Source: a virus | Virus record (IMG/VR): IMGVR_UViG_3300032291_003299 | Span: 1 to 25,931 of that record | Strand: one strand, 5' to 3' | DNA: 25,931 bases | Part shown: one piece after another, positions 5,425 through 25,850 of the stretch | Layout of the letters: each line of letters begins with the position of its first letter | Numbering within the stretch: position 1 is the stretch's first letter | Translations under genes and position numbers: made by a program | The notes under the pieces: generated by a model | The model's database searches: none | Seen by the model: the letters and a program-made list of their open reading frames with translations, nothing else | Told to the model about the DNA's origin: nothing

Positions 5425-6807
5425 TTAGTTAGTTATTTGAGCTTTTAAAGTATTTACTTCTGCTCGTAATTCTTTTACTGCCGCCACAAGTAGCGGAATA
5501 ATATTAGACTCTGCAATGCCTAGGAATTCTTCTGCAGGAGTAATTTCGTTACCCTCTTCATCAAGAACTGCCTCTGTAGTATTTGTCTTAATTATATTAT
5601 TGACCCACTCATAATCCTTGAGCGATTCTTTAACCTCTTGAGCAATAAAGCCTACAGTCTTACCCTCAACAAAATTATGTACTGGGTGCTCTTTCCAATC
5701 AAATGAGACGGGATTAAGAGAATCAATTATATCAAGTCCTGAAGATATAGGCAATACGTTTTCCTTGTATCTTCCGTCAGATGTGGCAATTGATGATGAT
5801 GTTGCAAATATCTGAGAGTTTACTTGAAGTCTATATGCACCCTGAGATCCTGTATAGCCAACTAATAAATATCCAGAGCTATTTATTACTGCTCTTTGAG
5901 TACCCGTTCCAACAAAGAATCTTACTTCAGAATCTTCATGTAGTGTGATCATTGGTTGGCCATATGATGCTAATGTTAAACTTCCACCACCTGCACAATA
6001 AACAGATCCTGATCCTGTGTTTATTGGATTATTAAAAATTAAAGATTTTCCATTATTTATAGACATATTTCCAGATGGGTCTATACGAACAGCTTCTGCC
6101 TGAGAGCCGTATCCTCCAGTTCTAAATACTAAAGTTCCTTGTCCGCTTCCATTAATTGTTGCCCCAATTGATGCACGAACATTTGCAGCGCTATAATCAT
6201 TTAAATTATGACTAAATCCTATTAGGTTGAATCCGTTAGCTGTATTTGTGTTTGGATCATTGATCATTAAAGCATAATTTATACTTGCTCCAGATGCGAT
6301 TGGATTTCTAATTGATAGTGGAGATACTGTATTTGTATGGTCTGAAGCTCCAATTAAAACCTTATGACCTTGAATTGCTAAAGAAACATTTCCATTTGCA
6401 TCTATACGCATTCTTTCTGTTGTGGATGAATTAACATAAAATCTTAAAGAATCATGATATACGTCTATTGCCGAACCATTGCCACTGTTATTAGAAATTC
6501 TTAGGGCATTACTTGCACCAGTACTGTCTGCCCCTTGTATTTGCATTACATCTAAGGCACTATTGCTTTGTCTTGCTAAACTTATTACTCCCCATGCATT
6601 GCTTGTATCTATTGTAAACCTAGAAGAAACGTTTACTTTATTTGTTGAGTTACCAGTTAAATTTAAAGATCCTTGAATTGTTTGTGTTGAAGCAAACGTG
6701 TTAGTGTTTGCTATTGATGCAGCGCCAATTGCGGCAGGAGTGGCGGTCCCTGGGGTACCTACTAATTCCCATTGACTTGTACTTCCGTTCCATCTTTTAA
6801 TTGCCAT
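5425..6807 (-). CDS. Tail fibre with C-terminal S74 intramolecular chaperone (460 aa)
   Basis: The N-terminus MAIKRWNGSTSQWELVG is the KRWNG attachment module, and an AGGAG Shine-Dalgarno lies 7 nt upstream. The shaft contains two copies of the ER(M/V)RID..GN(V/M)S pattern typical of beta-helical fibres (TERMRIDANGNVSL and AVRIDPSGNMSINNG). The final 118 residues are an S74 domain: SDGRYKENV places Ser343 and Lys348 at catalytic spacing, followed by VGFIAQEVKE, a charged insertion and a terminal coiled coil (VKELRAEVNTLKAQITN). Known S74 domains cleave themselves after trimerisation, so the mature fibre probably ends near residue 342. The S74 domain is only distantly similar to that of the 3332-5164 fibre, so this is not a recent duplication. 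Confidence 0.88.
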   Translation of the reverse strand: MAIKRWNGSTSQWELVGTPGTATPAAIGAASIANTNTFASTQTIQGSLNLTGNSTNKVNVSSRFTIDTSNAWGVISLARQSNSALDVMQIQGADSTGASNALRISNNSGNGSAIDVYHDSLRFYVNSSTTERMRIDANGNVSLAIQGHKVLIGASDHTNTVSPLSIRNPIASGASINYALMINDPNTNTANGFNLIGFSHNLNDYSAANVRASIGATINGSGQGTLVFRTGGYGSQAEAVRIDPSGNMSINNGKSLIFNNPINTGSGSVYCAGGGSLTLASYGQPMITLHEDSEVRFFVGTGTQRAVINSSGYLLVGYTGSQGAYRLQVNSQIFATSSSIATSDGRYKENVLPISSGLDIIDSLNPVSFDWKEHPVHNFVEGKTVGFIAQEVKESLKDYEWVNNIIKTNTTEAVLDEEGNEITPAEEFLGIAESNIIPLLVAAVKELRAEVNTLKAQITN

Positions 6808-10714: not shown

Positions 10715-13700
10715 CTACAATGCTACTTTGCTTAGTTTTACCGTTACATTTGTGCTTGTTGCATCTGTTATTGTTGCCTGCAAAACTCCGTCAGTGCCAG
10801 AGACTCCTGCAGAAATTGCCACACCAGAAATAACTCCACCTGTTTCTGTAATTGCAAACTCTGTCATATCTACAGACGATCCATTGTTTTGGACAATTAC
10901 CTTAGAAGTTCTTACCTTTGTGCCCTGCTTCAAAGATATCATATATTCGATACTTGTGAATGCTGACAAGGCTGTTGTGTCTACAGTTGTTGCGGTATTC
11001 GCTGATACAGTTGCAGTCTTTGTTTCAATTGGTACTACTAGAGTTCCCCATGTTGCAGATGAGCCATCTGTAGTTAAATATTTTCCTGAGTTTCCTGTTT
11101 GAGAAGGAAGGCTTACTGGTGCTGCCGCCCATTCAACTCCATTTGTAGCAGATGAATTAGCTGTGAGCAAATATCCATTTATTCCAACTGAAAGTTTTGC
11201 TGGGGTATTGTCTGCGGAAGCAACTAATAGGTCACCCTTTGCATCAAAAAGTGACTCGTCTACCTTTAAGTCTAATGCTGTTTGAGTTGCTGTTGATACT
11301 GGCTTATTGGCATCTGATGTATTGTCTACATTTGCAAGCCCCACATCAGACTTTGTAATACCAGTTGGAGTATTAATAACTGGACTTGTCAAAGTTTTAT
11401 TTGTTAATGTGTCTACTGTATCTTGTCCGACAAGGGTAGTAGTTGCGTTTGGAAGGCTTACTGTCCGATCTGCTGTTGGATCTACTGTTGTTAAAACTGT
11501 CTCAAACTCATTATTTGTTGCACCTTCAAAAGTAATAAAGTGTGGTTCTGGAAGGTATATTCCATGAATTCGTGGAGTGCCTCCAGTAGCCGTAATTTCT
11601 GGCCCATTAATTGTTGGGGTTGTAAGGGTTTTATTTGTAAGTGTTTCAGTTTTTGAAGCTGTTGATTTATCATCTAGCTGTGTCTGAATTGCTGAAGTTA
11701 CACCATTTAAATATTGAAGTTCTGTATTAGATACATCTCCAATTGTTGCAGATGATGCATCAATTGCTCCCACCTTTATTCCAGAATATGAAATTCCTGC
11801 TTCTGCAAAGTTTGTTGTGCCAGATGGTTTTGTAGTTGCTCCATGGAATATCTTAACTACTCCGTCAGATGCATCTCTTACAACTCCGCCAAATTTGCGT
11901 CTTGCGCCAACTGAGGCTGAGCCATTAGGGGTAACAGCAGCACTTGTAACATTTGTTGCTGTTTTAGCATATGTAAATGTTGTTGTGGTTGGAACATCAA
12001 TAATATTAAATGTTCCGTTAAATGTTGCGTCTACACCTGTAATTGTTACAACATCTCCATCTAAGTATGTATGATTTGCCGATGTTGTAAGTGTAGCGAT
12101 ATTGTTAGTAAGTGCCTTATTTGTTACTGTAGCAGTAATTGCTGGCGACTGAGTAACGGCAAATTCTGTATAAATACCGAGATCTACAAGGTCTGCCTGA
12201 TTGTTTGTACCAACGAAAATTGCTGGGTCTGTAACAGCAAGGTTCTCTGTTTCTACAGTTGTTCCACCACCACCAAATGTGATTGTTCCTTGAATAGCAA
12301 CATCACCCTGGATGTTTAAATCTCCAGATATACCTACTCCACCTACTACTGTAAGTGCTCCTGTTGTGGCACTTGTAGATTCTGTAGCAATTTCAATGTG
12401 AACATTTTGATCTGGAGTAATGCTCATTTGCTCATTGTCTGAGGCTAGTCCACCTGCGGCAAATATAATTTTATTTTGTGTTCCAGAGTCACCTGTTGCT
12501 AATACTAAATTACCTCTATCTGAATTGCCAGATGCACCTGTTACAAATATATATCCATCTCCAGGTCCTGTAATAGTAAAATCTGGATCAGAAAATGCTG
12601 AAGATGTAATTCCCATATCAATATATCCAGCAAGATCTGTGCCATTATTTGTGTACATGATTATGTCTGTTGAAGCGTTGGCTGCGGCGCTTTGATTTTG
12701 ATGAGCAATTTGTGCGTAGTCATTGTGATTTGTAACAGCAACAACAGTTGGATTAGTTAGAGTATCAGCAAATGTTTTTGCTCCAGGACCAATAGGTAGG
12801 ACTTCTACTCCTGAAAGATCAACTTGGCCATTTACATCTAAGTTTCCTTCGATGTTAATGTCTCCCTGAATACCAACTCCTCCAACTACGGTTAATGCAC
12901 CTGTTGTTGAAGATGTAGAAGGGGTAGGAATTTCAATATGAACATTTCTATCTGGGAAAATTGTCATCTGTGTATTATCAGACTGTAATCCTCCTGCAGC
13001 AAAAACAATGTTATTCTGTGCTCCATTTGCACCAGTTGCAATTACCAAGTCTCCATTTCCTGTGTGCTGTGTAGCTGTTCCAACAGGTGATACTGCGGCA
13101 GATGCTAGGTTTGCGTTTGTTTTAGAATAGGTAAATGTAGTAGATGTTGGAGTCCCATTAATTACATACGTGCCGTTATAAGGAGCGCCAACTCCAGAAA
13201 TTGTTACTTTTTTACCAACCGTAAATCCATGAGCTGCAGCTGTTGTAAGGGTAACTGTATTTGTTGTTAATGCTTTATTATTTACAGAAGCTACTGTAGT
13301 TGCTGGTGCTTCCATAAAAATATAACCATCATTGGCTTTTGTAATTGTAAACTCTGGATCAGAAAATGCGCTAGATGTAACACCCATATCAATCCAACCA
13401 GCAGCATCGTTTCCATTATCTGAATATGCAATAATATCCGTAGAAGAGTTAACACCATTTCCAGTATTTTTAACTACTAGCTGAGCATAATCGTTATCTG
13501 AGTCAATTGAAAACACACCCATTGGATTTGTATAGGCATCTGAAGTTCTTAGGCCAAGTGATTGAGTTCCTACGTTTAATCCATTTGAAGTTACTTGTAA
13601 TCCTGTTGCAAATGTAGGGTTTGCTGATGTTGCAATTGTTAATGTATTATCTACATCGCTATAAGTTTTAGTTATATTTGTTCCAGCCGTTAATGCTAGA

Positions 13701-14200
13701 TCAACTGCATCTTGAGCTCTTTCATCTGTAAAGTATTTATTTGTAGTTCCCTCAGAAACATTGTCTGTATTTAATGTTGGAATATCTGTAGTTAAAGCGA
13801 CAGTTCCCGATGCGTTAGGAAAAGTAATTGTTCTGTCTGCGGTTGGGTCTGTTACAAATAAAGTTGTTTCGAAAGAATTGTCTGTTGTTCCCTCAACAAT
13901 AATTGAGTTTCCTGTGACGATTGCATTTTTATTACTATCTAGTCCAACGACTCCGCCTGCTACGCCTATTTCTCCATTTTGAATGTAGTCTGTAAGTGTT
14001 TGATCTAGAGAAGACGGGACAATGTTTGCATATGTTGTAATTGAATTCCATGCTGTTCCTAATGCTGGAGATACAACAGAAGGACCTATCTTAATTCTAA
14101 GTGTGTCTGTTTCTACTCCAACCTCGCCTGGGCGAAGAACTGGATTATTTGTTGACCAATTTGATGCTGTATCTCTACGTAATTGAATTCTAACTGCCAT
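10715..14200 (-). CDS. Long tail fibre / tropism determinant-like structural protein (1161 aa)
   Basis: This is the largest gene in the window. The N-terminus (MAVRIQLRRDTASNWSTNNP, then GEVGVETDTLRIKIG) matches the Mtd N-terminal domain pattern found at the start of many phage fibres. The centre carries duplications: two copies of a block STDII.Y..NG.D.AG.IDMG.TSSAFSDP (about residues 253 and 510), each followed by VHIEI..STS.TTGALTVVGGVGI, and two copies of a TNKALT..TLTT..H..(G..VTI.GV) unit (about 303-360 and 690-753). KTETLTNKTLTTPTI repeats and KSDVGLANVDNTSDANKPV (about 945-975) are shaft motifs common in fibres. The protein is nearly free of Cys. It probably forms a long trimeric fibre or baseplate connector. 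Confidence 0.86.
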   Translation of the reverse strand: MAVRIQLRRDTASNWSTNNPVLRPGEVGVETDTLRIKIGPSVVSPALGTAWNSITTYANIVPSSLDQTLTDYIQNGEIGVAGGVVGLDSNKNAIVTGNSIIVEGTTDNSFETTLFVTDPTADRTITFPNASGTVALTTDIPTLNTDNVSEGTTNKYFTDERAQDAVDLALTAGTNITKTYSDVDNTLTIATSANPTFATGLQVTSNGLNVGTQSLGLRTSDAYTNPMGVFSIDSDNDYAQLVVKNTGNGVNSSTDIIAYSDNGNDAAGWIDMGVTSSAFSDPEFTITKANDGYIFMEAPATTVASVNNKALTTNTVTLTTAAAHGFTVGKKVTISGVGAPYNGTYVINGTPTSTTFTYSKTNANLASAAVSPVGTATQHTGNGDLVIATGANGAQNNIVFAAGGLQSDNTQMTIFPDRNVHIEIPTPSTSSTTGALTVVGGVGIQGDINIEGNLDVNGQVDLSGVEVLPIGPGAKTFADTLTNPTVVAVTNHNDYAQIAHQNQSAAANASTDIIMYTNNGTDLAGYIDMGITSSAFSDPDFTITGPGDGYIFVTGASGNSDRGNLVLATGDSGTQNKIIFAAGGLASDNEQMSITPDQNVHIEIATESTSATTGALTVVGGVGISGDLNIQGDVAIQGTITFGGGGTTVETENLAVTDPAIFVGTNNQADLVDLGIYTEFAVTQSPAITATVTNKALTNNIATLTTSANHTYLDGDVVTITGVDATFNGTFNIIDVPTTTTFTYAKTATNVTSAAVTPNGSASVGARRKFGGVVRDASDGVVKIFHGATTKPSGTTNFAEAGISYSGIKVGAIDASSATIGDVSNTELQYLNGVTSAIQTQLDDKSTASKTETLTNKTLTTPTINGPEITATGGTPRIHGIYLPEPHFITFEGATNNEFETVLTTVDPTADRTVSLPNATTTLVGQDTVDTLTNKTLTSPVINTPTGITKSDVGLANVDNTSDANKPVSTATQTALDLKVDESLFDAKGDLLVASADNTPAKLSVGINGYLLTANSSATNGVEWAAAPVSLPSQTGNSGKYLTTDGSSATWGTLVVPIETKTATVSANTATTVDTTALSAFTSIEYMISLKQGTKVRTSKVIVQNNGSSVDMTEFAITETGGVISGVAISAGVSGTDGVLQATITDATSTNVTVKLSKVAL

Positions 14201-14205
14201 TTTAT

Positions 14206-14670
14206 TTAACCTACCCCTCCATCAATTATATCATCATTAGGTGTTGTGGTATAGTCTGTTGTTGCAGATCCACCGTCTAAAGAAACAATATAATTTCCGT
14301 ATTCTACATAATTGCCATAATCTAGTGTTCTAACTCCACCCTCACCTGCAAAGTGTGTGTGGTCAAGTAATTCTTTTGGACCAGCTACGTCGTACCAAAT
14401 AGATCCATTATAAACTTTTATTGTATTTTCAGAAGAATCAAAATATGTTCTTCCTTGTACTGGTGAAACTGGTGCTTCTGCAAGAACTTCAAATGAATTT
14501 GATGTTCCTGTTCCGCCGCCGCCAGAACCTGTTAGCAATGACCATGTAGAACCATTAAATATTTTTAATGCTCCCGACACAGTATTATAATAGATTTCTC
14601 CAGCGTAGGTACCTGCAGGATCTGTAGATAAAGCTGGCGGGGCAATTGTTGTTTTAAATTGCTTTGCCAT
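14206..14670 (-). CDS. Small virion-associated protein with two W-containing N-terminal repeats (154 aa)
   Basis: The protein contains two versions of the same ~35-residue unit, GEIYYNTVSGALKIFNGSTW and GRTYFDSSENTIKVYNGSIW, separated by a glycine linker. This G.(I/T)Y(Y/F)....(L/I)(K/V)(I/V)(F/Y)NGS.W unit is a common module at the start of phage fibres (also in the 14673-15977 protein as GQIYYNTVENVMYYYNG). The C-terminus (LDYGNYVEYGNYIVSLDGG) is tyrosine-rich. The ATG follows the upstream stop by two bases with little Shine-Dalgarno, so translation is probably coupled. It likely links or caps longer fibres. Confidence 0.76.
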   Translation of the reverse strand: MAKQFKTTIAPPALSTDPAGTYAGEIYYNTVSGALKIFNGSTWSLLTGSGGGGTGTSNSFEVLAEAPVSPVQGRTYFDSSENTIKVYNGSIWYDVAGPKELLDHTHFAGEGGVRTLDYGNYVEYGNYIVSLDGGSATTDYTTTPNDDIIDGGVG

Positions 14671-14672
14671 AA

Positions 14673-15977
14673 TTATCCAGTTATAACTACTCTGTACTTA
14701 TTAGCTGTTGGCTGCTCCGAAAATGTAAGAGTTACTACAGATGTTGATGTATGGTCTACATCACATTCAATTTGTGCGTATGGAGAAGAATTGTCATAAA
14801 CTTGTACAATTACATCCCGTGTTCCCAAGTTGTGTGTTGCAGTAAATGTAAATGGAGTCACTGCTGTAGTTGTTATATTAGTTGAAAATTTACGAACAAT
14901 TGCATGATAGTTTGTACCATCATTTGTAAGTGTCCAGTTATCATTTGTTTCATTCCATAGTACTTCTACGTCTGTAGATGTACCACGCTCTACACGAATA
15001 CCAGCATCTGCTGTTGGTGATCCTGTAAAGTCGGTATTAAGATTAATCTTATTATCAACAATGTTTACCTGAGTAGTATTTACTGAGTTAATTGTTCCAG
15101 TTACATTTAAATTGCCGCCAACTGTTAAGTTGTTAGTAATTGTTACGTCATCTGGCAATCCAATTGTTATTGCTGCTGTTTCTGCGCCCGAGCCAGATAC
15201 TGTTACCTCATTTGCGGTTCCAGTAACAGTTGCAATGTACGCTCCTGTTGTATCGGCGCCCAACTCTACTGAGTTTGGCTGTACTGTTGTGGTGATTGTT
15301 ACATCGCCAAGATTTGTCATTGTTGCAGAGCCAGCTACGTCTCCTGAGAGAGTAATTACAGGATCTTTATTAAGAGATACTGCTCCTGATGTTACTGTAA
15401 AGTCTGTTGAATTAAATGAAGCAACACCTTTATTTGTTGTGCTTGCATCTTCTCCTGATACTGTAATTGTGTTGTTTGTTACAGCTACATCAATTCCTTC
15501 TCCGCCTGCAACTGTTAATGTGTCAGTTAATAAATCAACTGTATCTGTCCCAGTGTCTCCTGCAATTAAAAGTGCTGTTGCTACTGTTACGGTTCCAGCT
15601 GCGGTTAAACGGCCTTGAGCATCTACTGTAAATGTAGGAATTGCTGTTTGTGATCCATATGAACCAGCTGTTACTGCTGTGTTATCTAAGTCAATTGTTG
15701 TGATACCTGTTGAGTCAACATATGTTCTTGTTAATCCAACGCCGCCTTCAACAGATGAACCAATTACATCTTGAATGACCTCTTGAGAGCCAGACATCGG
15801 CATCCATGGGCCATTTGGTGAAGATAGTCCATTGTAATAGTACATTACATTTTCGACTGTGTTGTAATAAATCTGTCCAGTTACAGGAGCTGATGGATTT
15901 GCTGTAAGCCCCTGAATTCTTGCGTTCTGAAGTTCATTCTTATTAAGATTGATATCAGTTACAAATAATCTTGCCAT
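14673..15977 (-). CDS. Tail fibre protein (434 aa)
   Basis: The N-terminus MARLFVTDINLNKNELQNAR followed by APVTGQIYYNTVENVMYYYNG is a typical fibre attachment region. The middle has DAQGRLTAAGTV, VTLSGDVxG-type (VITLSGDVAGSATM) and NNLTVGGNLNVTGTIN motifs, all recurrent in beta-helical phage fibres. The C-terminal 70 residues (THNLGTRDVIVQVYDNSSPY, then VTLTFSEQPTANKYRVVITG) are a small beta domain that recurs on phage fibres and on the 15991-16428 protein as HNMGYNPNVTVKN. AAGGAG lies 7-8 nt before the ATG. It is probably a trimeric fibre near the baseplate. Confidence 0.84.
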   Translation of the reverse strand: MARLFVTDINLNKNELQNARIQGLTANPSAPVTGQIYYNTVENVMYYYNGLSSPNGPWMPMSGSQEVIQDVIGSSVEGGVGLTRTYVDSTGITTIDLDNTAVTAGSYGSQTAIPTFTVDAQGRLTAAGTVTVATALLIAGDTGTDTVDLLTDTLTVAGGEGIDVAVTNNTITVSGEDASTTNKGVASFNSTDFTVTSGAVSLNKDPVITLSGDVAGSATMTNLGDVTITTTVQPNSVELGADTTGAYIATVTGTANEVTVSGSGAETAAITIGLPDDVTITNNLTVGGNLNVTGTINSVNTTQVNIVDNKINLNTDFTGSPTADAGIRVERGTSTDVEVLWNETNDNWTLTNDGTNYHAIVRKFSTNITTTAVTPFTFTATHNLGTRDVIVQVYDNSSPYAQIECDVDHTSTSVVTLTFSEQPTANKYRVVITG

Positions 15978-15990
15978 TTTCTATTCTCCT

Positions 15991-16428
15991 TTAGGATAGG
16001 TAAGCTATCCCACCGAATGGTTGAGCCATTGTCAGTGTTATTTTGTTAATACTATTATAATCTATTCCTGTTTCTAATATGTCTCCAGCGCTGTTTTTGA
16101 CAGTGACATTGGGGTTATATCCCATATTATGAGTTATCTCAAGGGCCCAGTAAGATCCTTGATTTGTAACCTGCCCGATTGAGAATGAGTATGTCAGAGT
16201 GCTTGTGCTTAATAGATAATTAGTTGCTCCAGCCCAAGTTAGGTCTGTTGGCTTTGGGCCGTAGAATCTTGTTGTTAGCTTGTCGTAGTAAAAATCTCCT
16301 TCAAGCCCCAAGTTCTCTGCAGGAACTCCATTACCATTTAATATTGATTTACCTCTAGGGCCCTGTGGGCCTGGAGTTGCAACAATTACATCATTAACAA
16401 CTTCTGTTACTATTACTGATTCTACCAT
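15991..16428 (-). CDS. Short collagen-like fibre / tail tip protein (145 aa)
   Basis: After a short N-terminal strand the chain has three Gly-X-Y triplets (PGPQGPRGK, residues 19-27), a minimal collagen-like stretch often used to hold phage fibres as trimers. GDFYYDKLTTRFYGPK follows and matches the post-collagen motif seen in many phage tail proteins. The C-terminal half (HNMGYNPNVTVKNSAGD, then FGGIAYLS) is the small beta domain that also ends the 14673-15977 fibre. One base separates its ATG from the upstream stop at 16430. It is likely a short spike or connector. Confidence 0.78.
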   Translation of the reverse strand: MVESVIVTEVVNDVIVATPGPQGPRGKSILNGNGVPAENLGLEGDFYYDKLTTRFYGPKPTDLTWAGATNYLLSTSTLTYSFSIGQVTNQGSYWALEITHNMGYNPNVTVKNSAGDILETGIDYNSINKITLTMAQPFGGIAYLS

Positions 16429-16429
16429 T

Positions 16430-16780
16430 TTAAATTGTCACCGATCTGCTAAGTGTTAGAAATCCTTCTAGCAATTTAATTTTATTTCCATTGCTATCTG
16501 AAACCATAATGTCGTATGATGATTTTGGATAGAATAGTTTGTTTGTTTGGGTAGGAGTCATTTTTATTGTAAGCTTACCAAGCAATGGGGTTATTGTAAT
16601 CCCGCCCGTTGATGGTGACGTTAAAGTAAATGCTAATTTTGATCCACCTTTTGTATCACGGACTTGCATTTTTGCTGTTGCGCCTGTCAAGTCAATAGGT
16701 AATCCATTATTGTCTTTATATTCAACAATAAATGAAAAAGTAGCATTTTGATCTACTTCGAAATTCTTTTGTCCTGCCAT
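16430..16780 (-). CDS. Beta-rich baseplate/upper fibre protein (116 aa, BppU-N-like)
   Basis: The sequence MAGQKNFEVDQNATFSFIVEY followed by DLTGATAKMQVRD, an ITPLLGKLTIKM stretch and SSYDIMVSDSNGNKIKLLEG has the order of short beta strands of BppU-type N-terminal domains found in baseplate proteins. The D(L/I)(T)GA.A.(M/L)Q(V/I)R motif is the most telling. It is the first gene of the fibre block in transcription order. The ribosome binding site GGAG lies about 10 nt before the ATG within sequence that can fold (see the hairpin at 16806-16831). Family assignment is from pattern memory only. It likely bridges the baseplate to the fibres encoded downstream. Confidence 0.68.
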   Translation of the reverse strand: MAGQKNFEVDQNATFSFIVEYKDNNGLPIDLTGATAKMQVRDTKGGSKLAFTLTSPSTGGITITPLLGKLTIKMTPTQTNKLFYPKSSYDIMVSDSNGNKIKLLEGFLTLSRSVTI

Positions 16781-16800
16781 TTGCTAGTACTCCTAAATAG

Positions 16801-16831
16801 GAAAACTCCTATGCTTATTTTAGCACAGGAG
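16801..16831 (-). terminator. Probable intrinsic terminator or regulatory hairpin between holin-like gene and fibre block
   Basis: On the minus strand a 10-bp stem (arms at 16822-16831 and 16806-16815, one G-U pair) with a 6-nt loop AAAATA is followed by TTTTC. It lies between the stop of the holin-like gene and the first fibre gene, so it could end holin transcription. The U tract is short (four), and the arm also carries AGGAG that resembles the downstream Shine-Dalgarno, so a role as a partial attenuator is possible. Confidence 0.5.
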
Positions 16832-16854
16832 CTATCCTAACTGTAATGATTAAA

Positions 16855-17097
16855 TTACTTGTTTGTAAACCCGAATTCTTTATTTGCTGGGCTTAGAGCC
16901 TTAAGAATAACTGGAGCCACTGCTGCGAATCCACCCATCAAAAGATCTCTTGGACTTGTATTGCCAGTCATATATAGAGCAATTGCTGCTGAAAGAAATG
17001 CACGAGCATAAGTTCCAAGTGCTGCTAGAATCTGTTCTGTCATAACTACTTTCCCATCTTTATTTAAATCGGCCTTGTCAAAAGTTTTTGTGGCCAT
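16855..17097 (-). CDS. Putative holin-like small membrane protein (80 aa)
   Basis: This short protein has two hydrophobic segments, about residues 30-46 (YARAFLSAAIALYMTG) and 51-70 (DLLMGGFAAVAPVILKAL), separated by a polar turn NTSPR, and a polar C-terminus with K residues. The order ARAFLxAxxA...GxxAAxxPVxLxAL resembles small phage holins of the r1t-like group; this is a pattern match and was not searched. The N-terminus has DLNKDGKV, a single calcium-binding EF-hand-like loop, which is unusual for a holin. A GAGGAG ribosome binding site lies about 8 nt before the ATG, and an extended -10 lies at 17157-17165. Holins make membrane lesions that release lysozyme. The lysozyme-like gene here is distant (20274) and on the other strand. 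Confidence 0.6.
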   Translation of the reverse strand: MATKTFDKADLNKDGKVVMTEQILAALGTYARAFLSAAIALYMTGNTSPRDLLMGGFAAVAPVILKALSPANKEFGFTNK

Positions 17098-17165
17098 ATT
17101 ATCGTCTCCTCGTGGGCGGTGTGCCCATGAATTTTCGGTTTTACCCGAATACTATAATTCTACCA
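17098..17165 (-). promoter_or_regulatory. Leader of the holin-like gene with extended -10 TGGTAGAAT
   Basis: On the minus strand TGGTAGAAT (17157-17165) provides an extended -10, immediately after the reductase stop codon; the same nine bases occur before the reductase gene. The ~50-nt leader that follows can form TTCGG..CCGAA and GGGC..GCCC hairpins before the GAGGAG site. A clear -35 is not seen. Promoter assignment is tentative. Confidence 0.4.
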
Positions 17166-19100
17166 CTAAGCCGAGATATCCACAAGCTCGCAATTTCCAT
17201 CTGAGCTACATGCAAGCGTGGCATTGGTAGAGGTACCGTCTTCTGTCTCGTAGAAAGATAAATCTTCCCAGCGAATGTCTTTAGGCATCTTTGCAACAAG
17301 TGCCTCATATTCTTCCTTAGCTACTTCTTGGTAAGGAGCTTGCTTGTAAGAGTGATCTGAATGTGGCAGGAAGGAAATTCCAGACACCTCGTCAAAGTGC
17401 TTATACACCCAAGCGCCTACCTCCATCCATTCATCTTCTTTTACTGAAACTGTAATTGAAGGCTTATGCTCGCACCAAGCACGTTGGTAAACTAGCCAAA
17501 TGTTTAGGTGTTCAATAGCTGTTAAATCATTTCTAACAATTGCACCTTCTGGAGCTTTTACTGGAAATGAAAATACGTATGTATCGTTTGGTTTCATTAC
17601 ATCATCTTCTACTGGAATTCCGACTTCCTTTAAAAATGTAGAGATTGGATCTCCTTTTGAACCACGAACTGTACGAATATAATATGGAGAATGCCAAGCA
17701 TGCATTCCTGAAGACACCCCGACCAATTGAGATACTGTTCCTGATGGCTTTACACATGTAATGGCTGCAGACTCTGGAATCCCAATTTTCCCAGCCTCAT
17801 CTTTATTTACTTCTCTTGCTTTTTCTCTAAGTGTCATCAAAAATGCCTCTAAAGAAACTAAGTCATCTTTACCTGACATAAATTTGTGCCCAAACTGACC
17901 AGTTAATGAAACACCAAGTAGTCGCTCTTCTTCTGTATTATCTTTCCAGATTTTGCGAAGATACTTAAAGTCAGTAAGTGTAGACTGCCAAGTTCCGAGG
18001 ATTGTTGCAAGTTCTACTTTACGCTGAATATCTTTCTTTGTATCTTTTTCACGTAGTACGACTTCTGAAAGGTTACAAAACTGATAAGGACGTAGGATAA
18101 TCTCTGAGCAAGGGTTAGTTCCATAGTGTATATCTGGATCTCTTCTTCCATACTTAGCTGCTTGGGCCTGAGCTGCGGCCACATTGTATATACCTCGTTC
18201 TCCTGACTTTGAGTCATAAAGAGATTTCCATTCTGCAATAAATTGCTCCATGTCTGGCTTGCGTGAATACGCAACAGAGTTATTAGACAAAGCACGTTGT
18301 GGACTTGCTTCCCACCAGTTACCTGATTTAGCCTGTGCCATTTCAATATCATTAATATTTGAAAGAGAAATCATTGCTGAGCGGCGAACTCCACCAACTA
18401 CAACAACTTCGCCAATCTTGCACATAATATCGTGGCATTCAATTGGCTTTAGATTTCTTCCTGTAGCGTTCTTAAACTTTGCAATTGTAAAATCAAATAA
18501 GTTAACAAGTGGTTGTGGTCCTGATGAACGTCCGCCCATTGTCTTAAGTCTTGCGCCTGCGGGACGAACTTTAGTAACATCTATTGCTGGAATTTGTCCA
18601 GACCAAAGCAGTGCTAGCAATTCACGGTATGCCTTTGCCCAACCTTGCTTTGAGTCTTCTACTGTAATTACTGTAGTTGACTTCTCTAATGATTCTGGGA
18701 CGGGAGGAAGCTTATTAATGTACTTATACTCAACGGAGAATCCTACGCCTGTACCACACATAAGAATATACATCGTTTCATCAAATGAACGTGGGGAATC
18801 AACTGGTAAGAATGCACAGTTATATCCTGCAACATTATCTCTTTCTAATGCTGCTCCTGAAGTCATAACAGAGCGCATTGATGGCATGACGTTTCTTTCA
18901 AATACACCATTTTTTAATTCCGCAACAAGCTTCTCATCTGGAATATAATTATGATTTGTTTTTAGAGCATTTAACATAAAGTCAAAATATCTATCTACTG
19001 TCTCACCCCACGTTTCACGACGGTTCTCTTCTGGAATCCATCTAGCGTAACGTGATAACGCAATAAAATTTTCGTATGGGTTTGCAATAGTCTTAGACAT
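17166..19100 (-). CDS. Adenosylcobalamin-dependent (class II) ribonucleoside-triphosphate reductase (644 aa)
   Basis: The enzyme reduces ribonucleoside triphosphates to dNTPs in the cytoplasm, using coenzyme B12 to make the thiyl radical. Catalytic residues can be placed against the Lactobacillus leichmannii enzyme: Cys331 in NPCSE (radical Cys, with Asn329 and Glu333), Cys342 eleven residues later (redox Cys, the same spacing as C408/C419), and Cys95 in AGYNCAFLP (its redox partner). The C-terminal pair Cys631/Cys637 would re-reduce the site through thioredoxin. CGTGVGFS (115-122) and KPSGTVSQLVG (451-461) are further class II motifs. The chain is shorter than the ~740-residue bacterial enzyme, with about 50 residues fewer between Cys95 and Cys331. 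As a phage-borne enzyme it would boost dNTP supply during replication. It lies between the holin-like and glycosyltransferase genes. Confidence 0.95.
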   Translation of the reverse strand: MSKTIANPYENFIALSRYARWIPEENRRETWGETVDRYFDFMLNALKTNHNYIPDEKLVAELKNGVFERNVMPSMRSVMTSGAALERDNVAGYNCAFLPVDSPRSFDETMYILMCGTGVGFSVEYKYINKLPPVPESLEKSTTVITVEDSKQGWAKAYRELLALLWSGQIPAIDVTKVRPAGARLKTMGGRSSGPQPLVNLFDFTIAKFKNATGRNLKPIECHDIMCKIGEVVVVGGVRRSAMISLSNINDIEMAQAKSGNWWEASPQRALSNNSVAYSRKPDMEQFIAEWKSLYDSKSGERGIYNVAAAQAQAAKYGRRDPDIHYGTNPCSEIILRPYQFCNLSEVVLREKDTKKDIQRKVELATILGTWQSTLTDFKYLRKIWKDNTEEERLLGVSLTGQFGHKFMSGKDDLVSLEAFLMTLREKAREVNKDEAGKIGIPESAAITCVKPSGTVSQLVGVSSGMHAWHSPYYIRTVRGSKGDPISTFLKEVGIPVEDDVMKPNDTYVFSFPVKAPEGAIVRNDLTAIEHLNIWLVYQRAWCEHKPSITVSVKEDEWMEVGAWVYKHFDEVSGISFLPHSDHSYKQAPYQEVAKEEYEALVAKMPKDIRWEDLSFYETEDGTSTNATLACSSDGNCELVDISA

Positions 19101-19183: not shown

Positions 19184-20188
19184 CTAAGAAAACTTTTCTA
19201 CTAAATGTGCAAAAGCTTTCTTGGTCAACTGATCCCAATTGTAATCTTCATGTATTTTAGTTGACTGAGCAAAATAATATCCAGAGTAAGCTTTGTAATT
19301 GTATGTCACATCTAACATTAATTCTTCTAAATGTTTTTTATCTGGCTTAAACATTTTTCCAATGTGTCCGTCAGAAATAAAGTTTGGCATAGTCTCATCT
19401 GTAAGTTTAGATTTTAATTTAAGCGGTCCCATATAGTCCACATAGTGAGACCAATCATATGTTGATATTACTGGCATGCCTGTTGCTAAACCTTGCAATG
19501 GAATAAAGCCAAACCCTTCACCCCATGTTGGATAAACTAAGACATGATGGTCATGATAAAGTTTAACAAGATCTTCTTCGCTAAGTTCATCTGTAATCAA
19601 ATCTATATTCTTATAAAGTTCGTGGGGAAGACCAATAATACTTTCTTCATTATCATATACTCTAACAGTGCTAAATTTATGAGCCTTAATAGTTAAATGA
19701 TAATCAGGGTTATTCCCAAATAGCTTTATAAATGTGTCTACTACTAGTTGCCCGTCTTTTCTTGGAGAAGGTTCCCCTATGTGCAAAAATTTCATTGACT
19801 GGCCATCTTGAACAAATCTTTTCTTTGGCTTCCAGGTGCTTTCAATGCCATGTGGATAAACATATATTGGTTTAGTTATTCCATTGTCTTTAAATACTTG
19901 AGCACACCAATCTGATGTTGTCCATACTTCATCGCAAGCATTAAACCGTTCAACCCATTCAGGCTTCATCTCTGTTGATTCCCAAGGAGTATAAGAAATT
20001 TGATATTGATTTCTATGTAATTTAAAATGTTGAGGCTGTGTAAAACTTAATTGAATATCAGCTTTGGGATCAGCAAAAGTTACATGATGACCTAGATTAT
20101 TTAAAGTTTTGACTATATTTTTTCCTGCATAGCCGTAACCAACTGCGGGATTAAGCCCCGACTGAATAGTATAATAAGATATATTCAT
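19184..20188 (-). CDS. GT-B fold glycosyltransferase, GT4-like (334 aa)
   Basis: The protein has the two-domain layout of GT-B enzymes. The N-terminal acceptor half starts MNISYYTIQSGLNPAVGYGY and carries TPWEST (67-72), and the C-terminal nucleotide-sugar half has the FLHIGEPSPRKDG loop (134-146) and GEGFGFIPLQGLATGMPVI (223-241). The last motif is the donor-binding E-x7-E element, but its second Glu is Gln (Glu224 then Gln232). There is no signal peptide or membrane anchor. In phages such enzymes glucosylate DNA or modify virion glycans or host surface polysaccharide. The target cannot be told from sequence. It is divergent from the lysozyme-like gene and would be the first gene of the leftward transcription unit. 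A purine-rich AGAAAGAAAA precedes the ATG. Confidence 0.85.
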   Translation of the reverse strand: MNISYYTIQSGLNPAVGYGYAGKNIVKTLNNLGHHVTFADPKADIQLSFTQPQHFKLHRNQYQISYTPWESTEMKPEWVERFNACDEVWTTSDWCAQVFKDNGITKPIYVYPHGIESTWKPKKRFVQDGQSMKFLHIGEPSPRKDGQLVVDTFIKLFGNNPDYHLTIKAHKFSTVRVYDNEESIIGLPHELYKNIDLITDELSEEDLVKLYHDHHVLVYPTWGEGFGFIPLQGLATGMPVISTYDWSHYVDYMGPLKLKSKLTDETMPNFISDGHIGKMFKPDKKHLEELMLDVTYNYKAYSGYYFAQSTKIHEDYNWDQLTKKAFAHLVEKFS

Positions 20189-23308: not shown

Positions 23309-23330
23309 TGTCAGACCCCCTTGCTATGAT
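23309..23330 (+). promoter_or_regulatory. Promoter P1, TGTCAG-N10-TATGAT
   Basis: TGTCAG (23309-23314), ten bases, then TATGAT (23325-23330), which also has a TGC extended -10. No -35 hexamer sits at the normal distance. This is the first of four promoters with the same architecture. The leader that follows has the AGTAAG/CTTACT hairpin and an AAAGG site before the ATG at 23381. Confidence 0.55.
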
Positions 23331-23380
23331 TAAAGTATAAAGAAAGTAAGAAAGTCTTACTAAGAAAGGTTAGGTCTAAA

Positions 23381-23554
23381 ATGACTAACAGAATTTGGGA
23401 AAGTCGTAGCGACTACCAAAATGAAAGTGACGCTATGCGTCTTGGCTATGTATCCTGCTCAGCAGGTTGCGGTAGAGTGACAGCATGGTCACTATGCGTA
23501 ATGTGTGGCGGTAACTACGCTACCCATAACCTAGTAGGAAAGGGGTCTAACTAA
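23381..23554 (+). CDS. Small zinc-ribbon-like protein (57 aa)
   Basis: The protein contains two C-x3/2-C knuckles (SCSAGC and CVMC), at about residues 26-30 and 39-42, in a compact chain with a charged N-terminus (MTNRIWESRSDYQNESD). The four Cys suit one zinc ion. It is the first gene after promoter P1 and its stop overlaps the next start (TAATG at 23554). AAGAAAGGTTAGG upstream supplies the ribosome binding site. Function unknown; small zinc proteins in this position often modulate host transcription. Confidence 0.66.
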   Translation: MTNRIWESRSDYQNESDAMRLGYVSCSAGCGRVTAWSLCVMCGGNYATHNLVGKGSN

Positions 23555-23658
23555 TGAACGACTACCTAGACTACATGGATGAAATCTATGAAGAACTCGT
23601 AGAAGAGTTTGGACATGAGATAGAGTCTAAGTGTGACCATAATCACACTAACGCCTAA
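23554..23658 (+). CDS. Very acidic microprotein (34 aa)
   Basis: The chain MNDYLDYMDEIYEELVEEFG, followed by a His/Cys tail (CDHNHTNA), is mostly one acidic amphipathic helix. It is translationally coupled to the previous gene. The last codons also contain a perfect Crp-type box (23632-23647), so the same bases encode protein and carry an operator. The acidic helix could mimic DNA, as in small phage inhibitors, but that is speculation. Confidence 0.55.
   Translation: MNDYLDYMDEIYEELVEEFGHEIESKCDHNHTNA
23632..23647. promoter_or_regulatory. Crp/GlxR-type binding site 2 (inside a coding end)
   Basis: TGTGA-CCATAA-TCACA, with flanking G and C extending the palindrome to GTGTGA..TCACAC. Its centre is 53.5 bp upstream of the -10 of P2 at 23693. 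Confidence 0.65.
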
Positions 23659-23676
23659 CGGCGTGTCGCTTGTAAA

Positions 23677-23698
23677 TGTCAGCCCTATCGGCTACAAT
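23677..23698 (+). promoter_or_regulatory. Promoter P2, TGTCAG-N10-TACAAT
   Basis: TGTCAG (23677-23682), ten bases, TACAAT (23693-23698). TTGTAA at 23670-23675 is also correctly spaced (17 nt) as a -35. A GGCGTGTCG repeat (23660-23668) lies just upstream. The leader to the next gene (23807) is unusually long, about 100 nt. Confidence 0.6.
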
Positions 23699-23726
23699 TC
23701 CTACTATAACAATTAAATAAGGGTAT

Positions 23727-23773
23727 GAGCCTAGCAAATAATCCCGACAGGGTGAGCCTAGCGAATAAGACCC
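23727..23773 (+). repeat. Direct repeat in the leader of the P2 operon
   Basis: Two copies of GAGCCTAGC(A/G)AATAA(T/GA)CCC, at 23727-23745 and 23754-23773. They lie inside a 17-codon open frame (23725-23778) in which they encode SLAN twice. The same stretch can form either CCC-GACA-GGG (23743-23752) or GGGT..ACCC (23750-23773), so two mutually exclusive hairpins are possible. A leader-peptide attenuator is conceivable. Confidence 0.45.
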
Positions 23774-23806
23774 ACTAACTAACTACTAACGAAAGAAGAA
23801 CAGATA

Positions 23807-23959
23807 ATGACTATCACTTATACACTATGGCAAGGCTCTCAACTATTAGCCGTAAATCAAAAGGCTAGCAAGCCTGAAGAAATCTTAGCGGTAATCGCTG
23901 AACTAAATAAACTCGGTAAGGGTTTCACTTATAACATTAGAGAAGTAGAGGTAAAGTAA
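23807..23959 (+). CDS. Small unknown protein (50 aa)
   Basis: The protein starts MTITYTLWQGSQLLAVNQKA and continues with a predicted helix (KPEEILAVIAELNKLGKG) and a short strand (FTYNIREVEVK), a plausible beta-alpha-beta mini-domain. AACGAAAGAAG lies 8 nt before the ATG, the same leader motif that precedes the genes at 24848 and 25295. It heads a run of five overlapping genes. Not recognised. Confidence 0.62.
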   Translation: MTITYTLWQGSQLLAVNQKASKPEEILAVIAELNKLGKGFTYNIREVEVK

Positions 23960-24132
23960 TGATGACCAAATGGGATACTATCCAAGCAGATGTAGCGGAC
24001 GCTTATGTCTACATAGATGAAGAAGAAGCCTATAATAAGGCACTAGAAGAAGGCAACATAAGCCTTATTGATGTTAATGACTTTGATGAAGATGAACTAA
24101 GTAAATCCCTTACACTAGATTGGAATGACTAA
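23959..24132 (+). CDS. Small acidic unknown protein (57 aa)
   Basis: It begins with two consecutive ATG codons (MMTKWDT); the first overlaps the upstream stop (TAATG). About a third of its residues are Asp or Glu, with DEEEAYNKALEEG and DFDEDEL, and it ends TLDWND. It is coupled to both neighbours by TAATG junctions. A DNA-mimic or inhibitor role is conceivable from composition alone. No family recognised. Confidence 0.6.
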   Translation: MMTKWDTIQADVADAYVYIDEEEAYNKALEEGNISLIDVNDFDEDELSKSLTLDWND

Positions 24133-24272
24133 TGACTATTGAACTAAATGAATACGGGCTAATGCTTGACCTAGGGGATTTTCTCTATGTATCTCAATCA
24201 TGGGCGTTTATTATCTTGTCGGTGCTAGGTGTTACAATTTATAAAGTAATCAAGAGAAAGAAGAATAAGTAA
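24132..24272 (+). CDS. Single-span membrane microprotein (46 aa)
   Basis: A polar N-terminus with a Trp (SQSW) is followed by a hydrophobic helix (AFIILSVLGVTIYKVI) and a strongly basic end (KRKKNK). By the positive-inside rule the C-terminus faces the cytoplasm. It is coupled by TAATG to both neighbours, one of which (24272-24385) is also a membrane microprotein. Function unknown. Confidence 0.6.
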   Translation: MTIELNEYGLMLDLGDFLYVSQSWAFIILSVLGVTIYKVIKRKKNK

Positions 24273-24385
24273 TGAATAGACTACTAACTAGCCTAGTGCA
24301 ATTAGCCCTTATCGTTCCCGCCCTCTACATGGGGCGCATTGTATGGCATGACTTTCTAGAAGAAATGAGAGAACTAACTAAATGA
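24272..24385 (+). CDS. Membrane microprotein (37 aa)
   Basis: The chain MNRLLTSLVQLALIVPALYM is a hydrophobic helix followed by an amphipathic charged tail (HDFLEEMRELTK). It could be a membrane protein or a signal anchor. The start overlaps the previous stop, and the stop overlaps the next start by ATGA. A role paired with the 46-residue protein is suggested only by position. Confidence 0.55.
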   Translation: MNRLLTSLVQLALIVPALYMGRIVWHDFLEEMRELTK

Positions 24386-24579
24386 AATCACAATTAGAAA
24401 AAGATTTAGAAATAAAAGAAAGTTTTATAGATTTACTAAATGATGTTTATCCTACTGTAAAGATTGGTTACTCAACTTTTACACCCGCCGAAATTCTAGA
24501 GTGTTGCGATCCTGTAGCGTTTGCGATTGGATTAGTAGAGCATGAAGATTATTTAGCAGAATTAGAAGATGAGACATAA
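24382..24579 (+). CDS. Small conserved phage protein of unknown function (65 aa)
   Basis: The central segment NDVYPTVKIGYSTFTPAEIL followed by ECCDPVAFAIGLVEHEDYL matches a motif of small proteins common in T4-like and other aquatic phages: (E/D)xYPxVxI.....S...L...DP.A(Y/F)..(G/A)L.......(Y). This is a pattern from memory. It ends with an acidic tail. It is the last gene of the P2 operon, coupled by ATGA. Confidence 0.72.
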   Translation: MKSQLEKDLEIKESFIDLLNDVYPTVKIGYSTFTPAEILECCDPVAFAIGLVEHEDYLAELEDET

Positions 24580-24594
24580 CTCACAATAAATAAA

Positions 24595-24719
24595 CGGCGT
24601 GTCGACTTGACAAATCGGCACGGCGCCCACAAAAGCTGCGGCGTCGGGCGTGTCGTTATGAACTTGTTATAAAATCCCCCGAAATTTACGGCGTGTCGAT
24701 TTGACAGACAAATCGGACA
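24595..24719 (+). repeat. Cluster of GGCGTGTCG repeats with hairpins
   Basis: Three copies of (C)GGCGTGTCG at 24595-24604, 24646-24655 and 24689-24698, with a fourth at 23659-23668 before P2. The first and third extend into near-identical sequences (GTGTCGA(C/T)TTGACA... AAATCGG) that fold as hairpins; the third has GATTTG-ACAGA-CAAATC (24697-24713). They occupy the gap between the stop at 24579 and the Crp box of P3. They may be operators, a weak terminator for the operon, or protein-binding iterons. The region is distinctly more GC-rich than its surroundings. Confidence 0.55.
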
Positions 24720-24725
24720 TTTTGA

Positions 24726-24741
24726 TGTGATGCTTATCACA
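24726..24741. promoter_or_regulatory. Crp/GlxR-type binding site 3
   Basis: TGTGA-TGCTTA-TCACA, also readable as the inverted repeat TGTGAT-GCTT-ATCACA. Its centre is 73.5 bp upstream of the -10 of P3 at 24807, 11 bp further than in P1. Confidence 0.65.
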
Positions 24742-24790
24742 CGGCTTGAGCGTCTCACATCTTGGAATTACTGGCTAGTAAGTAGAAAAA

Positions 24791-24812
24791 TGTCAGACGC
24801 CTAATGTATAAT
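24791..24812 (+). promoter_or_regulatory. Promoter P3, TGTCAG-N10-TATAAT
   Basis: TGTCAG (24791-24796), ten bases, TATAAT (24807-24812), followed by TCTACTATAACAA which also follows the -10 of P2 in near-identical form. No -35 at normal spacing. The leader carries AACGAAAGAAGG before the ATG at 24848. Confidence 0.62.
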
Positions 24813-24847
24813 GTCTACTATAACAACAAACGAAAGAAGGTCTGCCA

Positions 24848-25054
24848 ATGGCTACCAAACTATACACAATCGAAAGCCTACTTATAGGAAAAAACTATCG
24901 CTCAAACTCTCGCCACTTTTCAGGCGAAATCGTTTCTGCTGAACCTCGCCCAGAAATTTGGTATGGCGAAAAAACTGAAGCCTATCTCATCGAGGTAAAT
25001 GCTGGCGGTCTGCGAAATAAATTCGCAACAATCGCAGTAAAGGTTGGTGAATAA
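24848..25054 (+). CDS. Small unknown beta-rich protein (68 aa)
   Basis: The chain starts MATKLYTIESLLIGKNYRSN and has GEIVSAEPRPEIWYG and AYLIEVNAGGLRNKFATIAV, alternating strand-like segments that suggest an OB- or SH3-like beta barrel, to be checked by structure prediction. AGAAGG lies 7 nt before the ATG. It opens the P3 operon and its stop abuts the next ATG. Not recognised. Confidence 0.66.
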   Translation: MATKLYTIESLLIGKNYRSNSRHFSGEIVSAEPRPEIWYGEKTEAYLIEVNAGGLRNKFATIAVKVGE

Positions 25055-25180
25055 ATGGGATATATTGAAATTTTTCGCATAGATGAGCAAGGTGCTGGCT
25101 GGGTTGATTTAGCCGAAGCAACACCAGACGAATTATTCAACATCGAAATTGGATTACTAAACGAAGGGGCGTTCGAATGA
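25055..25180 (+). CDS. Small acidic unknown protein (41 aa)
   Basis: The protein reads MGYIEIFRIDEQGAGWVDL and continues with an acidic helix (ATPDELFNIEIGLLNEGAFE). It starts directly after the upstream stop (TAA-ATG) and ends with ATGA into the next gene. The short strand-turn-helix pattern is consistent with a folded mini-domain. Function unknown. Confidence 0.58.
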   Translation: MGYIEIFRIDEQGAGWVDLAEATPDELFNIEIGLLNEGAFE

Positions 25181-25302
25181 ACCTAGACGAATTCAAGAAG
25201 CACGTTATCGCACAACGTGAAGCAAGCAAGGCGCAAGCCTTGTCAGTGCTATCTGCTACAATTACAACTCAAACAAACGAAAGGGAAAACCTAAATGGCT
25301 AA
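25177..25302 (+). CDS. Small helical unknown protein (41 aa)
   Basis: The chain MNLDEFKKHVIAQREASKAQ followed by ALSVLSATITTQTNE is helix-forming and rich in Ala, Gln and Lys. Promoter P4 (25241-25262) and the leader motif for the next gene lie within its codons, so its C-terminal half may be constrained by regulation more than by protein function. It overlaps the next gene by 8 nt. It could be a minor or vestigial gene. Confidence 0.5.
   Translation: MNLDEFKKHVIAQREASKAQALSVLSATITTQTNERENLNG
25241..25262 (+). promoter_or_regulatory. Promoter P4, TGTCAG-N10-TACAAT (within a gene)
   Basis: TGTCAG (25241-25246), ten bases, TACAAT (25257-25262). GTCAG(T/C)..CTATC.GCTACAATT is nearly the same as P2. 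There is no perfect Crp box upstream, only a degenerate half (TTATCGCACA, 25205-25214). The leader holds AACGAAAGGG (25276-25285) before the ATG at 25295. Confidence 0.5.
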
Positions 25303-25459
25303 TGTAAAACAATACCTAGAAATTATTTCTGCGGAATGTGATGAATGCGGTGGAGCAGGATTTTTATTCTTTGGAGATGAAAATAATTATGATGTAGAGC
25401 CTTGCTCTTGCGTAGATGAAATTTCTGATGAACTAACTGTTGATTGGGTGAATGAATAA
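25295..25459 (+). CDS. Small Cys-rich zinc-ribbon-like protein (54 aa)
   Basis: Cys15 and Cys18 (CDECGGAG) are in a DnaJ-type C-x2-C-x-G knuckle, and CSC (at about residues 37-39) supplies the second pair. A single zinc site is likely. The protein is otherwise acidic and ends DWVNE. It follows promoter P4 and overlaps the next gene by TAATG at 25459. Similar DnaJ-knuckle microproteins are common in phages. Function unknown. Confidence 0.64.
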   Translation: MANVKQYLEIISAECDECGGAGFLFFGDENNYDVEPCSCVDEISDELTVDWVNE

Positions 25460-25662
25460 TGTATAAACTAACTTGCGCCTATGATAGCAACGCTCCTCAT
25501 TGGTCTGCCGAATACGAAAACGAATTTGGTGCGTGGGAAAACTTTTTTCTATTTACCGATTGGGGAATGGCTAACGAATACTCAACTGTAAATCTATACA
25601 CGCCAACAGGCAAATGCTATACAAAAGTTTTCTATCGTAGTGGAATGGTGGCAGTAAAATGA
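25459..25662 (+). CDS. Small unknown aromatic-rich protein (67 aa)
   Basis: The chain is rich in Tyr, Trp and Phe (PHWSAEYENEFGAWENFFLF) and beta-strand forming towards the end (STVNLYTPTGKCYTKVFYRS). There is no signal peptide. It lies between two overlapping genes (TAATG before, ATGA after). The aromatic-rich pattern suggests a small beta sandwich. Not recognised. Confidence 0.64.
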   Translation: MYKLTCAYDSNAPHWSAEYENEFGAWENFFLFTDWGMANEYSTVNLYTPTGKCYTKVFYRSGMVAVK

Positions 25663-25850
25663 TGACCCGTAAAGATTATGTCGCAACGGCAGAAATTCTA
25701 AAGTATCTAAGCAACAAAACTCACCCTGCTGTTTTTTCTAAAACTGTTCACGATTTCGCAGAAATGTTTGCGAAAGATAATGAGCGATTTGATGTAAAAC
25801 GATTTCACGAAGCGAGTAATTATAATGTTCCAAACTTCACTTCGAGATAA
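25659..25850 (+). CDS. Small conserved phage protein (63 aa)
   Basis: The chain starts MMTRKDYVATAEILKYLSNK, then AEMFAKDNERFDVKRFHEAS. The (M/L)T(R/K)KDY...A.I(L/I)......F........(F)...FD...F..A pattern is widespread in small proteins of aquatic phages (pattern memory). The first of two ATGs overlaps the previous stop (ATGA). The next gene starts 26 nt before its stop, in another frame. Function unknown. Confidence 0.7.
   Translation: MMTRKDYVATAEILKYLSNKTHPAVFSKTVHDFAEMFAKDNERFDVKRFHEASNYNVPNFTSR

Follow-up and report, generated by a model that had tools for sequence, protein, structure and literature searches.

Candidate promoters and small genes in the window

The window analyzed here, that is, the complete 25.9-kb stretch of an IMG/VR virus record, carries within its first 20 kb on the minus strand genes for tail-fibre-like proteins, a ribonucleotide reductase (RNR) and a glycosyltransferase, and an arm of small genes with five promoter-like sites (A to E, Table 1) runs away from the latter. 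Four of these sites (A, B, D and E) had been described in a first-pass annotation as TGTCAG followed after exactly 10 nt by TAnnAT, and all four are found as described; a fifth copy with the same gap, recovered when A or G is allowed at the fifth base (TGTCGG, site C), had been missed. All five are on the plus strand within about 2 kb, confined to the last 2.7 kb of the window and surrounded by short ORFs.

Table 1. Candidate promoters and neighboring genes in the window.
Feature	Position	Strand	Remarks
Ribonucleotide reductase, class II-like	17166-19100	-	Anchor for gathering relatives
Glycosyltransferase	19184-20188	-	Adjoins RNR, order as in Stanwilliamsviridae
Promoter A	23309-23330	+	TGTCAG (23309-23314), 10 nt, TATGAT (23325-23330)
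ORF after promoter A	23381-23554	+	57 aa
Promoter B	23677-23698	+	TGTCAG (23677-23682), 10 nt, TACAAT (23693-23698)
Three short ORFs after promoter B	23807-24272	+	50, 57 and 46 aa; stop/start junctions overlap
Promoter C	24217-24238	+	TGTCGG (24217-24222), then TG, TACAAT (24233-24238); within ORF 24132-24272
Short ORFs after promoter C	24271-24579	+	37 and 65 aa
Promoter D	24791-24812	+	TGTCAG (24791-24796), 10 nt, TATAAT (24807-24812)
Two short ORFs after promoter D	24848-25180	+	68 and 41 aa
Promoter E	25241-25262	+	TTGTCAGTG-N8-TACAAT; within ORF 25177-25302
Three short ORFs after promoter E	25295-25850	+	54, 67 and 63 aa; arm visible only to window end

For TGTCRG-N10-TAnnAT, the five sites observed in the window compare with 0.16 expected, and none of 100 dinucleotide shuffles contained more than two. 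Read backwards, the looser pattern TGTCRG-N10-TAnnnT had no match in the window. Two looser matches fitting TAnnnT only are located on the minus strand (185-206 and 23728-23749) and are probably due to chance. A search allowing two mismatches was uninformative, yielding 45 matches versus 38 expected.

The annotation had placed the sites just upstream of plus-strand gene groups, which needs small corrections: at B, the -10 is separated from the next likely gene start by 108 nt instead of the usual 30 nt or so, and C and E fall within short upstream ORFs. At C, 33 nt lie between the end of the -10 and the next ATG. The 57-aa product encoded behind promoter A showed no Pfam or PHROG match. Upstream of promoters B and D, CGGCGTGTCG-like repeats followed by TTGA or TTGT are present (23650-23670, 24592-24612 and 24688-24706), which also occur in some relatives and are possibly another regulatory or a terminator-related repeat.

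Spacing and layout in related phages

Via the window RNR, 80 viral loci (L008-L087) amounting to 1.0 Mb were gathered. In this set the 10-nt gap is kept, with 128 TGTCRG-Nk-TAnnAT sites at k = 10 versus 1 to 24 at each of 20 other values of k in the range from 4 to 24. Likewise, four assembled relatives and the window together show 70 sites at spacing 10 versus 2 to 11 at the others (5 to 19). When counting 6-mers upstream of TAnnAT-RBS-ATG in the relatives, i.e., with no motif assumed, TGTCAG at a gap of 10 ranks first (n = 61), and the same count reveals TTGACA-N18-TAnnAT as a second promoter class (n = 60). Named examples for the latter are G005 29740 and G005 18679, the second being a dual site where TTGACA and TGTCAGTG both precede one TATAAT. 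The 109 distinct TGTCRG sites of the relatives are A/T-rich before the core, show a partial 'tg' after it and frequently bear a G two bases before the -10, whereas within the columns available, reaching at most 12 nt before the core, no -35 element is visible, in line with the earlier observation that a -35 at normal spacing is not conserved.

The divergent small-gene arm is also where the sites of the relatives are found, matches among structural genes being few and weak; the clustering upstream of small-gene operons, which the first-pass annotation had suggested testing, is thus observed. One-strand sites in the long relatives number 9 in G005, 12 in G006, 12 of 13 in G007, 11 in G010 and 15 in G016, and the distance from the -10 to the ATG is mostly 24 to 35 or 24 to 40 nt. 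Among 20 relatives searched whole, five had no site.

Of 17 RNR-selected orthologues of gene 24848, 16 retain promoter D at 46 to 58 nt before the ATG, even where protein identity has dropped to 38% and the spacer sequence has changed. Promoter E is likewise retained by 11 of the 15 RNR-selected orthologues of gene 25295. Promoter A recurs in L067 and L013, at 71 to 72 nt from the start of the orthologous gene, whereas four others lack it. For promoter B, the motif occurs within 110 nt upstream in 5 of 18 RNR-selected orthologues; in a partly motif-selected set of 45 orthologue matches, one of the matches being a contig-edge artefact, 21 have it no more than 200 nt upstream. Genes inside operons are mostly devoid of the motif in RNR-selected orthologues. 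An origin of the sites by chance or from base composition has next to no probability: after controls nothing speaks for it, it is contradicted by the shuffles, by the pattern read backwards, by the counts at other spacings and by the retention in orthologues, and the persistence of the spacing peak in the relatives rules it out.

Across IMG/VR, the 15-base pattern TGTCAGTG-N6-GN-TATAAT was found in at least 120 stretches, compared to 26 for a version one base longer and 48 for one shorter by a base. Among the matches listed, 99 of 119 loci contain a total of 471 further N10 sites, of which 467 share the strand of their index site and 4 are opposite to it, with 0 to 16 sites at other spacings in the same loci; the two control sets gave 3 and 2 further N10 sites. 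A relative of the window RNR is present in 35 of 50 pattern-selected records among the matches listed. One of the phages, G046, is divergent, with an RNR of 30% identity and few shared small genes (27-51% identity), and still has 11 sites.

Correspondence with RecA-NDp promoters

If the -10 box is taken to begin at -12, TGTCRG spans -28 to -23 and is thus located, as recognized initially, between the usual -35 and -10 positions. The first-pass annotation had proposed a phage-specific promoter class, perhaps read by a modified host RNA polymerase, an alternative sigma factor or a phage activator, and knew of no described promoter of this form. With its fixed spacing and clustering the class behaves as a real one and would need more than sigma alone, but it is not specific to phages, as the same consensus characterizes the LexA/RecA-independent damage promoter of actinobacteria, RecA-NDp or P1, given as tTGTCRgtg-8 nt-TannnT (Gamulin 2004, in the wording quoted in PMC5656591). 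Recast as TGTCRG, 10 nt and TAnnnT, this already described consensus has the same core and spacing as the phage sites, and promoter E, TTGTCAGTG-N8-TACAAT, matches it in full. Shared are the core at about -26, the exact 10-nt distance to TAnnnT, the missing conserved -35 and, less clearly, a frequent 'tg'. RecA-NDp promoters serve DNA-repair genes, whereas the phage sites are present in many copies per genome ahead of small phage genes, their -10 is closer to TATAAT and their extension is looser.

The 'gtg' extension is present at sites C and E and absent from A, B and D. Throughout the relatives, TG follows TGTCRG at 58 of 141 on-spacing sites versus 102 of all 485 TGTCRG, and as it also follows 40 of 122 off-spacing ones, this sign is weak by itself. 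Many sites lack the extension, e.g., TGTCAGACCCC, and are thereby looser than the mycobacterial consensus, whereas all 11 sites in G046 read TGTCAGTGG. An extended -10 alone was rejected as explanation, the TG being partial and TGTCRG at fixed spacing the stronger part.

In actinobacteria, DNA-repair genes are switched on via such promoters by the damage sensor PafBC, a WYL heterodimer of which PafB reads the -26 motif and PafC contacts domain 4 of sigma-A; the complex acts with the housekeeping holoenzyme and is activated by single-stranded DNA (ssDNA) on its WYL domains (PMC11804915). Binding of RecA-NDp by PafBC has been established in vivo, and the published reading of PafBC promoters rests on mycobacteria. 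A base-specific element at a position where sigma makes no contacts would be accounted for by PafB reading the -26 motif. Judged from sequence, the five sites are hence quite likely RecA-NDp (P1)/PafBC-type promoters on a freshwater actinophage, read by the host's PafBC. The promoter class is already known; for its use as main phage promoter, no report joining phage promoters with PafBC or RecA-NDp was found in titles, abstracts and term counts of the open-access literature.

In the mechanism proposed, the main sigma factor of the host's housekeeping RNA polymerase would recognize the -10 box, often with a partial extended -10, at promoters that appear to offer no usable -35. Sigma adaptation would be provided by host PafBC loaded with ssDNA, which would bridge to sigma region 4 while reading TGTCRG(TG) at about -28 to -23, so that no phage-encoded activator would be needed. 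Transcription would start about 7 nt after the -10, giving a leader of about 17 to 28 nt with a Shine-Dalgarno sequence ahead of the small genes. With the ssDNA signal supplied by infection or phage DNA replication, the arm would, as we infer, become active when the DNA enters or is replicated, and its expression should respond to ssDNA. The host of these phages would presumably possess PafBC.

If this holds, a common freshwater actinophage group leaves a large gene arm to an ssDNA sensor of its host rather than keeping it under its own sigma factor or activator, and phage gene timing is tied to DNA entry or replication. PafBC would then gain a role in infection, for which no report was found among the titles, abstracts and term counts of the open-access literature. 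Besides, hundreds of natural -26 element variants would become available for dissecting sigma adaptation, and metagenomes could be screened by a sequence mark for phages of PafBC-bearing hosts.

Candidate regulators of the small-gene arm

The mode of action proposed for host PafBC has a phage counterpart in the middle promoters of T4, where MotA box and -10 are used together with sigma appropriation by AsiA. As in the window, an activator element replaces the -35 at a short fixed gap to the -10 of phage operons; in contrast, the T4 element has another sequence and its activator is phage-encoded, whereas none has been recognized here. By analogy, a phage-encoded activator, MotA-like or of another non-WYL fold, might read TGTCRG at -26 and substitute for the -35 contact, in which case the resemblance to the host class would be mimicry or convergence. 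Such an activator has an outside chance: MotA demonstrates that phages work in this way, family matches of most small phage proteins are uninformative or lacking, and part of the sites follow the host consensus only loosely. What argues against it is the identical core, A/G choice and spacing of the host class, including TGTCAGTGG in the divergent G046, and the outcome of domain searches, in which none of 63 phage records (13 and 50) had a WYL domain and none of 15 had Sigma70_r2 or HTH_11. With many of these records being fragments, a missing regulator gene is weak evidence, and short novel proteins would escape such searches; nevertheless, a regulator supplied by the host is the simplest reading. 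For the more specific variant that the small-gene arm of a widespread freshwater phage group, with 8 to 15 promoters per genome, is governed by a non-WYL phage-encoded sigma adaptor reading the host's damage -26 element, the chance is slim; such a phage could control the host's damage regulon in addition to its own genes.

Another WYL or -26-binding regulator of the host in place of PafBC, either SiwR-like or ClgR, is distinctly improbable. SiwR likewise works at -26 as a WYL activator upstream of a -10, at the dinS promoter of M. smegmatis, yet as a homodimer on one operon and via a conserved GGA triplet within a palindrome, not via TGTCRG. ClgR has been reported to recognize the P1 motif (cited in the text of PMC5656591), whereas RecA-NDp was later attributed to PafBC by in vivo mapping of binding sites.

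Highly improbable is that TGTCRG represents a repressor operator or stoperator over ordinary sigma-A promoters, as known from L5-type repressor sites. Stoperators of L5 do contain TGTCA, and the dual site of G005 has TTGACA at normal spacing, but an operator needs neither the fixed 10-nt gap nor the constant strand and regular distance from -10 to ATG, and a conserved -35 is missing.

Host affiliation and further observations

By RNR and gene order, the nearest cultured kin are Streptomyces phages of the Stanwilliamsviridae, whose RNR is about 65% identical to that of the window and which share the glycosyltransferase-RNR order and a divergent small-gene arm. WhiB, which according to the literature is confined to actinobacteria and serves as an actinophage mark, is encoded in 3 of 20 relatives, and a WhiB search in phages pointed to Streptomyces and Rhodococcus kin. 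Because of WhiB, the Stanwilliamsviridae-type RNR and the gene order, the phages look like actinophages, and from habitat and low GC we infer Nanopelagicales as a likely host order. Searching genome contigs by RNR for a host yielded only distant or probably misbinned ones. Among them is CAINGU010000031.1, binned as a cyanobacterium, with an RNR 80% identical to that of the window and no promoter site in 13 kb, which is probably a misbinned phage contig.

In contrast to the window, the Stanwilliamsviridae members PinkiePie and Comrade, with higher GC and other hosts, show no promoter cluster in the parts examined, and no sites were detected in the half-genome of TM4 examined (RefSeq). The mycobacterial motif has been reported as not conserved in S. 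venezuelae, which would explain the finding for PinkiePie and Comrade but not for TM4. Use of the promoter class may follow the host.

Further observations concern individual proteins. The promoter-bearing arm of G006 encodes a small CDACGS...CGHH protein (L298, 6185-6385), probably a DUF7455 match; a DUF7455 search gave no matches. In G034 (12486-14489), G038 (15782-17776) and G052 (95635-97638), the RNR is encoded in a single frame of 707 to 711 aa whose alignment is broken in two near residue 411-416, and hence seems to hold a short insert, either a domain insertion or a mini-intein-like element. In the window, the genes at 3332-5164, 5425-6807 and 10715-14200 include two for proteins with a Peptidase_S74 chaperone domain and one for a protein with an Mtd_N domain, suggestive of an elaborate receptor-binding apparatus.
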